Positions 32,361-34,753 of a DNA stretch of 51,981 bases are shown here, in pieces. The stretch is from positions 1 through 51,981 of the forward strand of contig JAFVBF010000051.1 in the NCBI GenBank assembly GCA_017480145.1, read 5' to 3'. A program made the translations under genes and the position numbers. Origin of the DNA: Bacteroidales bacterium (GTDB lineage Bacteria > Bacteroidota > Bacteroidia > Bacteroidales > P3). The notes beneath the pieces are model-generated. The model was given only the letters and a program-made list of their open reading frames with translations, was not told the origin of the DNA and did not search any database. Each line of letters starts with the position of its first letter. The stretch's first letter is position 1.

Positions 32361-32738
32361 CTACTTGACGGCGATGGTCTCTATCTCGACCATGGCCCCC
32401 ATAGGCAGTGCCTGTACGGCGAATGCGGCACGGGCGGGGCTGTCGGTGGGATAGTATTTGGCATAGACCTCGTTCATGGGCTTGAAATAGTCCATCGTTG
32501 CCAGCAGGCACGTACTCTTCACCACGTCTTGAAAGGTGAATCCAGCCTCGTCCAGAATGGCCTTGATGTTCTTCATCACCTGCTCGGTTTGTGCGGTGAT
32601 GTCGCCCTCCACCAGTTTCCCTGTGGCGGGGTCAATGGGCACCTGTCCTGAGATATAGAGTGTGTTGCCTGCCAGAATGGCCTGGCTGTAAGGTCCGATG
32701 GCTGCGGGAGCCTTGGGGGTGCAGATGACTTTTTTCAT
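32361..32738 (-). CDS. RidA-family reactive enamine/imine deaminase, 125 aa
   Basis: RidA proteins hydrolyse reactive 2-aminoacrylate-type enamines released by PLP enzymes. The protein shows the family marks APAAIGPYSQAILAGNTLYISGQVPIDPATG, then QVMKNIKAILDEAGFTFQDVVKSTCLL, then the active-site SPARAAFAVQALPMGAMVEIETIAV with the conserved Arg and Glu. At 125 residues and without a signal peptide it fits the cytoplasmic trimeric family. A TAACTTTG box lies 31 bp upstream on the minus strand. Confidence 0.95.
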   Translation of the reverse strand: MKKVICTPKAPAAIGPYSQAILAGNTLYISGQVPIDPATGKLVEGDITAQTEQVMKNIKAILDEAGFTFQDVVKSTCLLATMDYFKPMNEVYAKYYPTDSPARAAFAVQALPMGAMVEIETIAVK

Positions 32739-32782: not shown

Positions 32783-33128
32783 AAAGGTTGTAACAAATGA
32801 GGGATTTTGGAAGATTAACGCAATTATTTCTCAATTGCAGCCATTCTCGAACACTACCTATTTCAGCGTTTCGACCCTGGCCGATGCATCGGGTGCTGCC
32901 ACTTTTCAGATTTCAGCCTTTGCCGAATATAGGTCTAACGCCTCCGTTGCTTTATTTGTCCCTTTCCGACCTCTCGGACATTGCCACACATGGCATTGTG
33001 GTGGTCATCGCAATCGCAAAGTTAGCACATTCCCCTCAATTACGAATTGCCTTCACTCAGAATAACACATTTTCCCCGTTATTTTGTGATTTTTATAGTT
33101 CCATCGCAGTATCTCCGAGAATTTTGTG
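32783..33128. other. Gene-free element between ridA and the candidate RNA gene
   Basis: Only short overlapping ORFs are seen. The minus strand has a second TAACTTTG box (33017-33024), then MTTTMPCVAMSERSERDK and, in shifted frames, NKATEALDLYSAKAEI and KVAAPDASARVETLK, each ended by a stop. The perfect palindrome CCGATGCATCGG is at 32881-32892, and TGCCACACATGGCA forms a hairpin near 32985. It looks like a conserved or repeated element rather than a gene. Confidence 0.4.
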
Positions 33129-33136
33129 TAATTTTG
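33129..33136 (+). promoter_or_regulatory. Candidate -7 box for the structured RNA
   Basis: TAATTTTG fits TAnnTTTG and would start a transcript near 33142. No good -33 element is seen. Confidence 0.4.
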
Positions 33137-33141
33137 CAACC

Positions 33142-33322
33142 GTGTTTCGTAAGAGGCACAAAATTTTGTTGGCTCAGAACATTACCGAATTACCACCTCG
33201 AATAATAAAAGGAGCCAGATATTCCCTGATGGGCGTAGGTGCTTTATGCGCAGACGCTTCTGCGGGGAATATAGGTTGTGGTAAACCTTGGTAATGCGTG
33301 GACGTGTTCTGCGCATTTTTTT
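33142..33322 (+). ncRNA. Candidate structured small RNA (6S-like rod), about 180 nt
   Basis: An intrinsic terminator at 33293-33322 has no protein gene upstream of it on this strand, so it should end an RNA. The transcript can fold as nested helices: GAACA (33177-33181) with TGTTC (33305-33309); ATTACC (33181-33186) with GGTAAT (33290-33295); TACCAC (33191-33196) with GTGGTA (33278-33283). A ~20-nt left-side loop (33199-33218) faces almost nothing on the right. Then come ATATTCCC (33219-33226) with GGGAATAT (33265-33272) and an apical hairpin CGCAGA/TCTGCG (33249-33264). A rod with one large asymmetric internal loop resembles 6S RNA. It lacks the hallmark motifs of tmRNA, RNase P RNA and SRP RNA. 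The 5' end is inferred from the promoter box. Confidence 0.5.
33293..33322 (+). terminator. Strong intrinsic terminator of the candidate RNA
   Basis: AATGCGTGGA (33293-33302) pairs with TCTGCGCATT (33308-33317), including two G-U pairs, around loop CGTGT. It is followed by five more T. Confidence 0.85.
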
Positions 33323-33350
33323 GTAGGACTAAAACTAAAACCTATAGGAT

Positions 33351-33974
33351 ATGAAGAAGGTTATGCTTTTCGTTGCTGCTTTGATGACTTTTATCGCTTG
33401 CAGCCAGTCGCCAGAAGATAAGGCGAATGCCTTGATTAAGGAGAGTATGAAAAAGACACTCTACCGCGCCGAGACATACGACCCGGTGGAAACGGTAGTC
33501 GATAGTGCCTTCACGCCGTTCGATGATCCAGCTTTTTATGAAAAGACAGTCATGTTATGCAACCTTAGCATGGATGTCGACAAATATGAGCGCATGGCAA
33601 AGAGCGAGAAGAGGGAAATTGCTCTTTATCAAGATATGCTGCGGATAATGTATAGCAATAGCGACAAGGAAAGCCTTAATCAAGCACAAGAAAACTACAA
33701 AGACTATCTGGCAAAGAAGAGCGAGGCTGAGGAGAGTTGCAAGAAACTGGCAGAGCAATTGATGGCCGAACTGCAAAAAGAACCTCGGTTTATAGGTTTT
33801 AAGGCAATACATCGCTATCGTGCACAAAACAATGGCGGGCAGACGGTCTTTGGCGAAACAAAGTTCCTGTTCGACAAAGATATGTCCCAAATTGTCTATG
33901 GATGGGATATAGACGAGGACGAATACAAGGCTGTTCAAGCCTTATTCGGGCAAATGCGGGGTGAAGATAATTAG
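33351..33974 (+). CDS. Putative lipoprotein of unknown function, 207 aa
   Basis: The N-terminus MKKVMLFVAALMTFIACSQ is a lipoprotein signal with lipobox IAC-S. The mature part is charged and helical (EKANALIKESMKKTLY-like start, then long Lys/Glu-rich helices ~80-140). It ends with FIGFKAIHRYRAQNNGGQTVFGETKFLFDKDMSQIVYGWD, a small beta segment. I do not recognise the family. Base composition is more AT-rich than the flanking housekeeping genes. After the TAG stop the same frame continues for 20 codons with a very acidic tail (DEDDEGSSNSDFGELENIED) to TAA at 34035, so the stop may be a recent nonsense change. Confidence 0.75.
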   Translation: MKKVMLFVAALMTFIACSQSPEDKANALIKESMKKTLYRAETYDPVETVVDSAFTPFDDPAFYEKTVMLCNLSMDVDKYERMAKSEKREIALYQDMLRIMYSNSDKESLNQAQENYKDYLAKKSEAEESCKKLAEQLMAELQKEPRFIGFKAIHRYRAQNNGGQTVFGETKFLFDKDMSQIVYGWDIDEDEYKAVQALFGQMRGEDN

Positions 33975-34051: not shown

Positions 34052-34753
34052 ATGAAAAAGATTTTCTTGATGATGCTTTTGCTTGTTTCCGTAATAGCAA
34101 ATGCACAAAAGGATGTGACGAAGTTTTTGGGAATTCCAGTTGACGGCTACAAGGCTGAAATGAAGAAGAAACTTCTTAGCAAAGGATTTACCTATAATAG
34201 TCAAAACGACTTCTTTGAAGGTGAGTTTAATGGCCGTGATGTTAGAGTATATGTCGTAACAAACAATAACAAAGTTTGGCGCATTGTGGTTCACGATGCA
34301 AACACTTGTGACGAGGGAGACATAAAAATACGCTTTAACAAATTATGCAGCCAGTTCTCAAAGAATCAGAAATATGTGGCTGCAAACTTTGGCGAGCGCG
34401 ATTACACGCTTTCGGAAAGCGAGGATATTTCCTATGAAATGCTTGTTCATAATAAAAGATATGAGGCTGCTTATTTCCAAGTAATAGACCCAGTATTAGT
34501 GGACACTTTGGCTAACCAAAAGAAGATCAAGGAAATCTTGTTGCAGGCATACACTCAGGAGCAATTAGACAATCCAACAGAAGAGCAAGCAGCGGAAATG
34601 CAAAGCTTAGTAGAAATAGAAGCTACAAAAATTGCTCTTGACTTGATGGAGAAGAAATTTGTATGGTTTAGGATAAGCGAGTTATATGGACGTTATTTCA
34701 TAAGTATGTACTACGATAACGAGTATAACCATTCGGACGGCGAGGACTTATAA
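34052..34753 (+). CDS. Secreted protein of unknown function, 233 aa
   Basis: A signal peptide (MKKIFLMMLLLVSVIANAQ) is followed by an alpha/beta region beginning KFLGIPVDGYKAEMKKKLLSKGFTYNSQNDFFEGEFNGRDVRVYVVTNNNKVWRIVVHD. This pattern (a 'fix-length GIPVDG...L..KGF' opening and strand pair) occurs in small secreted Bacteroidota proteins that I cannot assign. The C-terminal half is helical and acidic and ends with WFRISELYGRYFISMYYDNEYN. The region is AT-rich. It lies 77 bp after the lipoprotein gene and 17 bp before a small gene, so the three probably form one unit. Confidence 0.75.
   Translation: MKKIFLMMLLLVSVIANAQKDVTKFLGIPVDGYKAEMKKKLLSKGFTYNSQNDFFEGEFNGRDVRVYVVTNNNKVWRIVVHDANTCDEGDIKIRFNKLCSQFSKNQKYVAANFGERDYTLSESEDISYEMLVHNKRYEAAYFQVIDPVLVDTLANQKKIKEILLQAYTQEQLDNPTEEQAAEMQSLVEIEATKIALDLMEKKFVWFRISELYGRYFISMYYDNEYNHSDGEDL

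Follow-up and report, generated by a model that had tools for sequence, protein, structure and literature searches.

A structured RNA ahead of a predicted lipoprotein gene in a Bacteroidales genome, most likely an outlying copy of a new leader-RNA family

The locus

The window considered here is contig JAFVBF010000051.1 (51,981 nucleotides (nt); assembly GCA_017480145.1) of a Bacteroidales bacterium, taken whole, and the subject is a structured RNA at 33142–33322 of its forward (+) strand together with the RNA family of which it is probably a divergent copy. A promoter box precedes the RNA, a leader hairpin opens it, a long interrupted hairpin (helices P1, P2 and P3 and an apical hairpin) makes up its body, a terminator-like hairpin with a T-run closes it, and two genes follow on the same strand (Table 1). 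The original prediction, made from the letters of this stretch, took it for a stand-alone RNA, the 6S RNA of the group or a new one. The box, palindrome, nested helices and terminator hairpin with T-run that it named were all found, at or no more than one base from the places given for them; the one-sided internal loop is likewise present, though of 22 nt and not 20. It also held that no protein gene lies upstream on the strand back to the ridA start at 32738; + strand open reading frames (ORFs) cross the RNA stretch (for example 32797–33294) but, in the ORF list, carry no sign of being genes. What it did not weigh is the ORF that starts at 33351, just past the T-run.

The 181-nt stretch folds at −65.5 kcal/mol as against −46.8 ± 4.2 for 200 dinucleotide shuffles (z −4.48; 0 of 200 as stable), and the structured RNA is real. 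With Rfam at gathering thresholds a transfer RNA (tRNA) is the sole match in the whole window, and with expect (E) values of up to 10 nothing credible is found in 33060–33345. By eye, TTTG is absent from the window copy at the expected −33 spacing.

Table 1. Features of the RNA and of the genes behind it, in window positions
Feature	Position	Strand	Basis or remark
−7 promoter box TAATTTTG, Bacteroidota type TAnnTTTG	33129–33136	+	sequence
5' leader hairpin GTGTTTC-GTAA-GAGGCAC, of the type that begins tRNA transcripts in the genus	33142–33159	+	fold, pattern scan
ACAAAATTTTGT	33158–33169	+	sequence
PK1 (early alternative helix), 5' segment TGGCTC	33170–33175	+	pairs with GAGCCA, 33212–33217
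GAACA / TGTTC	33177 / 33305	+	sequence
P1 outward extension GAA/TTC	33177–33179 with 33307–33309	+	predicted fold
P1, 5' arm	33180–33186	+	pairs with 33290–33296; contains ATTACC (33181) / GGTAAT (33290)
GAA, 5' side of P1/P2 internal loop	33187–33189	+	faces ACCTT, 33285–33289
P2, 5' arm	33190–33196	+	pairs with 33278–33284; TTACCAC (33190) / GTGGTAA (33278)
One-sided 5' bubble, 22 nt	33197–33218	+	its end, 33212–33217, is the PK1 partner
P3, 5' arm	33219–33226	+	pairs with 33265–33272; ATATTCCC (33219) / GGGAATAT (33265)
Apical hairpin	33232–33258	+	fold; strand 33246–33255 (ATGCGCAGAC) also complements the terminator 3' arm (PK2)
CGCAGA / TCTGCG	33249 / 33259	+	sequence
AGGTT, the RGGY box 5' of the P2 3' arm	33273–33277	+	
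3' arms of P2 (33278–33284) and P1 (33290–33296), ACCTT between	33278–33296	+	fold, sequence
Terminator-like hairpin ATGCGTGGACGTGTTCTGCGCAT and T7	33294–33322	+	3' arm 33306–33316, T7 33316–33322; called from sequence alone
Downstream gene, predicted lipoprotein of 207 amino acids (aa), no Pfam family	33351–33974	+	starts 28 nt after the T-run
Second gene, 233 aa, no Pfam family	34052–34753	+	

An RNA family spread through the Bacteroidales

When put by blastn to 98 relatives the stretch gave mostly promoter-box matches and otherwise short promoter, leader or terminator pieces; one locus (L002, in G031) is 94% identical over 33129–33161 and then continues with another long hairpin, a terminator and an ORF. 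Hairpins of a similar kind could be made out upstream of genes homologous to the window's lipoprotein gene. Six loci, the window's included, were aligned by hand on a common architecture, with the pairs hand-chosen and a count of them therefore circular: P1, RAA opposite RCCY, P2, a 5'-sided bubble opposite RGGY, P3 and an apical hairpin with GCGTGGAC or a close form in most members. RAA faces RCCY in all six, and RGGY and RCCY are complementary in all six with two of the four pairs changed on both sides, a pairing for which the larger set gave no covariation.

The first covariance model (R1, from over-trimmed skeletons) was too rigid, matching 0 of 119 genomes and, with filters off, not recovering full-length members as such. 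Its successor R2 was made from trimmed copies, six training rows that included the window's. With filters off it recovered five of these six, L057 being the lowest in rank at E 7.5e-4 and the one missed, L059, coming later at E 8.5e-5; it also found two copies outside its training (L015, E 2.7e-12; L022, E 2.8e-7), on loci that had been retrieved on other grounds. At E ≤ 0.01 it matched 39 of 41 genomes of the genus, with one to nine copies in each, or 33 of 35 when the six genomes of the training rows are set aside; the window's own genome has five matches, the window copy among them. A 20-nt motif scan of genome contigs yielded at least 117 stretches, and among the 80 listed 71 match R2 and 74 carry titles naming Bacteroidales, Bacteroidetes classes or their genera (including Prevotella, Segatella copri, Bacteroides faecis, Alistipes, Parabacteroides and Barnesiella). 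Only one of the six other listed titles, L188 (Acetatifactor), matches R2; with 99% identity over 1.9 kb to a locus of Bacteroides ilei, it may be a mis-binned contig. R3, built from 85 matches with the window, L057, L059 and some near-repeats left out, matched 123 of 393 genomes of the order in 75 of 206 genera, an undercount since only nine candidates per genome were scored; it finds the left-out L057 (E 2.8e-7) and L059 (E 7.2e-5).

Covariation is extensive. In an alignment of 83 distinct rows, which had been fitted to the structure, 27 of 29 pairs are changed on both sides (0 of 500 shuffles), the covariation score being 0.762 against 0.195 for shuffled rows and at most 0.090 for slid controls; 2 of 500 shuffles had as many further pair types. 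In P3 all seven pairs are changed on both sides. Compensatory change among homologues, to which the original prediction had pointed as a mark of such an RNA, is thus present in the family. With repeats of the same copy dropped, 36 of 38 and 88 of 91 matches gave 117 distinct cores. Rfam gave no match at E ≤ 0.1 for six further family loci and only implausible ones for five earlier loci, no exact match of the 20-nt motif was found in IMG/VR, and the titles and abstract beginnings listed by literature searches held no description of the family. As far as tested the family is without an Rfam entry, and it is widespread in Bacteroidales. It may already be listed among the 3161 human-microbiome candidate RNAs of Fremin and Bhatt 2021, some of which are from Bacteroidetes and palindromic, for instance HMP2_4205 of 132 bp (PMC8040213).

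TAnnTTTG lies within 150 nt upstream in 106 of 117 family copies, whereas the opposite strand has it in 30 of 117 and random stretches in 498 of 5850 (9%); its distances to P1 cluster at 41–49 and 55–68 nt, with scatter up to 117. The leader pattern TTTGCAN{3,8}TTTCGNAAGAG has 38 matches in 32 of 119 genomes of the genus and none for the reversed control, and 25 of 30 leader-pattern loci, judged by eye, run into a tRNA. With a 5' element of the kind that leads tRNAs in the genus, the transcript would be expected to begin as a stable RNA does. One promoter and one 5' leader hairpin, TTTGCACCCGATTTCGAAAGAGAAATC, recur in many tRNA operons of the genus (loci L064–L092) and seem to form a class of leader for stable RNAs.

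6S RNA has its own promoter and folds, over some 180 nt, into a long interrupted hairpin that contains a bubble, and in these respects (RF00013, RF01685) the family is like it, down to a leader of stable-RNA type. Since RF00013 was without an over-cut-off match in the genomes tested (0 of 99, with 4 of 14 controls matching), the group's 6S RNA could be one that goes unrecognised. Detection of a Bacteroides 6S RNA with pRNAs is reported (PMC7366714). That the stretch is the 6S RNA of the genus, as the original prediction had entertained, is nonetheless extremely unlikely: the family is multi-copy, its bubble is one-sided, its terminator is followed by a gene to which it appears coupled, and no 6S match occurs in the region at E ≤ 10, copy number and lack of a model match being the grounds on which the identity was rejected. 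RF01685 (6S-Flavo) matched 0 of 1 here, but its controls gave no match either.

Bacteroidales-1 (RF01693) is a structured RNA of Bacteroidales with a promoter and a terminator, again features of the family. It was rejected as the family's identity as its matches in the genus are weak, one per genome and situated elsewhere (on C47 of G031 and C54 of G039, as against C250 and C36 for L057 and L059); there is no match in the window's own genome at E ≤ 0.1, nor in the region at E ≤ 10. Those sub-threshold matches, one per genome (G006, G015, G025, G051 and others; L102–L104, L106), suggest a diverged Bacteroidales-1. The motif is tabulated in PMC2864571.

Downstream genes and alternative pairings

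In 91 of the 113 copies whose sequence reaches far enough, a sense ORF of 90 aa or more begins 30–160 nt after the RNA, as against 734 of 5650 random positions (13%), and convergent ORFs account for 6 of 113; the main spacings are 76–85 or 96–111 nt. Might the family nevertheless be a stand-alone, multi-copy small RNA acting in trans, with the gene behind it incidental and served by other promoters? It has its own promoter box and terminator, its leader is common to tRNA genes, and the downstream genes are functionally diverse. Yet the sense ORFs are close and co-oriented, TAnnTTTG stands between RNA and ATG in only 2 of the 91, and the homology of the leader block often extends past the terminator to about the start codon, so that a stand-alone RNA, the form given to it in the original prediction, is unlikely. 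Some copies (L111, L128, L134) have GTTGCGCCCGACAC in common before the start codon, a possible small hairpin, and a loose motif search between RNA and ATG gave GTTGNSCC or GCCAACAG in 18 of 113.

Homologues of the window's lipoprotein are present in 9 of 118 other genomes, and in five of the nine a family RNA lies upstream on the same strand, directly before the gene in G019 and G033 and one gene away in G030, G048 and G057, two of these five loci being training loci; upstream of the homologues in G006, G113, G139 and G141, where that sequence is partly short, no family RNA was found. The gene that comes first after the RNA in L015 and L016 (46%) and in L211, titled Barnesiella (53%, E 2e-73), is a homologue of the second gene, as more weakly is the one in L210 (31%, E 4e-10); L210 and L211 were found through the RNA motif alone. 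More generally the downstream proteins have no common function. Put to Pfam, 97 of 118 downstream ORFs (21 that were repeats, distant, partial or doubtful being left out) gave 53 families, 25 of them listed, and none in more than two proteins; many predicted small lipoproteins and secreted or membrane proteins (by eye) are included, as are DNA methyltransferases. In this the family departs from riboswitches and attenuator leaders, which it otherwise resembles in having folds that exclude one another and a terminator before a gene. Synteny with ridA was not seen among the upstream stretches examined.

The pairing tests cover 115–116 copies, with the window tested separately. For the family counterpart of PK1, between the 5' segment and a post-P3 segment, duplexes within a copy are at −10.5 kcal/mol, swapped ones at −7.2 and shuffled ones at −5.9; 68 of 115 copies are in the best 5% of shuffles and 40 of 115 in the best 5% of swaps, and three control regions were null. 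P1-RAA with the start of the bubble behaves similarly (own −4.65, swapped −2.66, shuffled −1.73). For PK2, the apical 3' strand with the terminator 3' arm, the values are −13.8, −11.4 and −7.1 kcal/mol, with 84 of 115 copies in the best 5% of shuffles but only 22 of 115 in that of swaps. The window's own PK1 duplex is at −10.9 kcal/mol against a shuffle mean of −3.4 (0.2% as good), and its PK2 duplex, apical strand with tail, at −18.3 kcal/mol (0.4% of shuffles as good). On prefix folding of the window RNA the TGGCTC/GAGCCA hairpin forms first and is replaced by P1–P3 once the 3' arms exist, with L128 and L121 alike, which bears out the competition that the original prediction had proposed between this pairing and the outer helices. 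As the counterpart of that pairing covaries in the family, we infer a co-transcriptional, kinetic switch before the terminator.

Such a switch could work as follows. A promoter of stable-RNA type would start the transcript and, during synthesis, the 5' segment would pair with the segment adjoining the P3 5' arm (TGGCTC with GAGCCA in the window). Completion of the 3' arms would then make this early pairing give way to the long hairpin P1-P2-P3, and the apical 3' strand could pair with the terminator 3' arm. Whichever fold prevails before polymerase reaches the T-run would decide between a stop and read-through into the accessory gene. Beside the computed fold, covariation, extra pairings, promoter box, closeness to sense genes, multi-copy spread through the order and varied, in places exchanged, downstream genes, we consider it probable that the stretch serves the gene at 33351 as its 5' leader and that it belongs, most likely as a divergent copy, to a new leader-RNA family of Bacteroidales, its transcription, its attenuation and any ligand or trans-acting factor being predicted.

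Several points weigh against this account. At the level of the family, no more than 59 of 113 copies have a U-tract within 60 nt; prefix folding of L112 gives no clear early hairpin; the predicted final fold of L121 has the terminator hairpin standing beside the long one; and P0, a closing helix of the 5' segment with the tail, is complementary but without covariation, which leaves relief of termination by the long hairpin conjectural. G-U pairs are nearly missing from P1-P2, which is strange in an RNA helix: they make up 5 of 1158 Watson-Crick-plus-G-U pairs, compared with 11 of 537 in P3 and 138 of 485 in P4-P5 of the same RNA. At the level of the window, its copy scores 6.2 bits with the window-free R3 (33182–33294, nearly the same register), which is to say that it is not found; the 31.6 bits given it by R2 (E 1e-4 per genome) come from a model with the window as a training row; its PK1 partner lies just before P3 and not, as in the tested family, just after the P3 5' arm; and its P1-to-ATG distance of 54 nt, while within 30–160, is outside the two main spacing clusters.

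Is the window's RNA then a lineage-specific stable RNA that resembles the family without being a member? Its apical GCGTGGAC motif is altered, and this, with the miss by R3, the shifted PK1 partner and the short pieces that blastn retrieved from the relatives, would speak for it. Its promoter box and leader hairpin, though, are as in L057 (94% over 33 nt), and an architecture descriptor, partly circular as the window is one of the six sequences behind it, has a single match in the window (33181–33294), none in 60 shuffled windows (6.2 Mb) and matches in 88 of 120 other copies. Because of this architecture, the presence of PK1 and PK2, the tRNA-type leader and the homologues of both downstream genes behind family RNAs, membership is favoured and the non-member reading is very unlikely; the window copy is an outlier, most likely a divergent member of the family.

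Gene exchange and the closing stems

At one locus, in three species (G023, G002 and G015), both flanks are syntenic and the single gene behind the RNA differs, the three proteins being without significant similarity. L149, L161 and L187 have a common leader and downstream flank with three dissimilar proteins between (L161 and L187 share the upstream flank also, with an offset), and L279 and L280 have a common leader and downstream flank with proteins alike over 22 residues only; likeness of the L136 and L137 proteins is similarly confined to 22 residues (E 0.007). The leader block alone is common to L281, L282 and L283, the flanks being dissimilar. A further candidate exchange, L282/L284, was dropped, the downstream proteins being diverged homologues (32%, E 1e-12). 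Homology between copies ends from the terminator to shortly past the start codon. The RNA is on mobile DNA too: all seven plasmid or phage stretches fetched after blastn match R3 (E ≤ 2.1e-10), one plasmid search having given seven records and another none, and the phage search one unannotated record. On plasmids it stands before a class A beta-lactamase gene (80 nt after the RNA) where it adjoins a MobV relaxase gene, before a DUF4433 gene (47 nt), before a hypothetical gene (83 nt) and 410 nt before an AbiE-type pair. In Bacteroides uniformis plasmid pBUN1 (L292, 2570–3673) the RNA, at 2570–2685, is between the MobV relaxase gene and blaMUN-1.

The arms of P1 change together. Over 273 close, non-independent pairs of copies, P1 columns have 431 changes that involve both arms and two that involve one (for P2, 39 and 7). 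L161 and L187 are 99% alike inside and differ at three P1 pairs; the RNAs of L149, L161 and L187 are nearly identical inside, with the P1 arms of L161 different from those of the other two and fully complementary. A P1 tag is shared by 1 of 185 same-genome pairs as compared with 37 of 1895 pairs between genomes, and since the difference within genomes is not clearly above that between them no claim of orthogonality is made. G-U scarcity together with paired arm changes fits selection against wobble, or DNA-level copying between arms, and would allow a DNA-hairpin role. Could the element then act chiefly as DNA, its inverted repeats forming single-stranded hairpins for gene capture, transfer or a single-strand promoter, with the RNA fold secondary? 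The pairing bias of P1-P2, the joint changes of the P1 arms, the exchange of genes directly downstream and the plasmid copy beside a relaxase gene are what this would lead one to expect. It is set against by homology that ends beyond the repeats, by a strand-specific promoter box and a terminator, by a P1 without a conserved core box and by the free use of G-U in PK1 and PK2 (17% and 10%, counted from predicted duplexes), and we regard a DNA-level element as improbable, with a leader RNA still the preferred reading.

Integron cassettes (attC/attI) place unrelated accessory genes at one site behind a common promoter, with a structured element nearby, and the family's arrangement is alike in each of these respects. 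It differs in that single genes are dispersed, the breakpoints are outside the hairpin and the P1 arms vary freely without a conserved core box; integrase genes were not searched for. One may venture, tentatively and as a rather doubtful extension of the leader reading, that the family is a portable Bacteroidales control-and-capture platform, an integrase-independent counterpart of the integron: a leader with its own promoter, whose P1 arms would be a copy-specific and strictly Watson-Crick tag, would mark where unrelated accessory genes (for lipoproteins, methyltransferases, toxin-like and resistance proteins) swap, all under one RNA switch. Irrespective of that, an RNA found several times over in a genome, across a dominant gut order, and apparently without an Rfam entry, sits on genes that distinguish strains. 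Should it prove to be a switch, many surface, defence and other accessory genes of unrelated function could answer to a single signal. It is unusual for an RNA family that single genes are exchanged while the leader before them is conserved, that the stems are strictly Watson-Crick and that the P1 arms change in pairs, and these features make a mechanism of gene capture or of stem maintenance directly testable.

Upstream of the RNA in L275–L278, at about 90–1000 nt, a divergent gene of about 281–295 aa is conserved, which we take to resemble those for proteins of Bro-N type; in L278 gene and RNA are together at a different locus.
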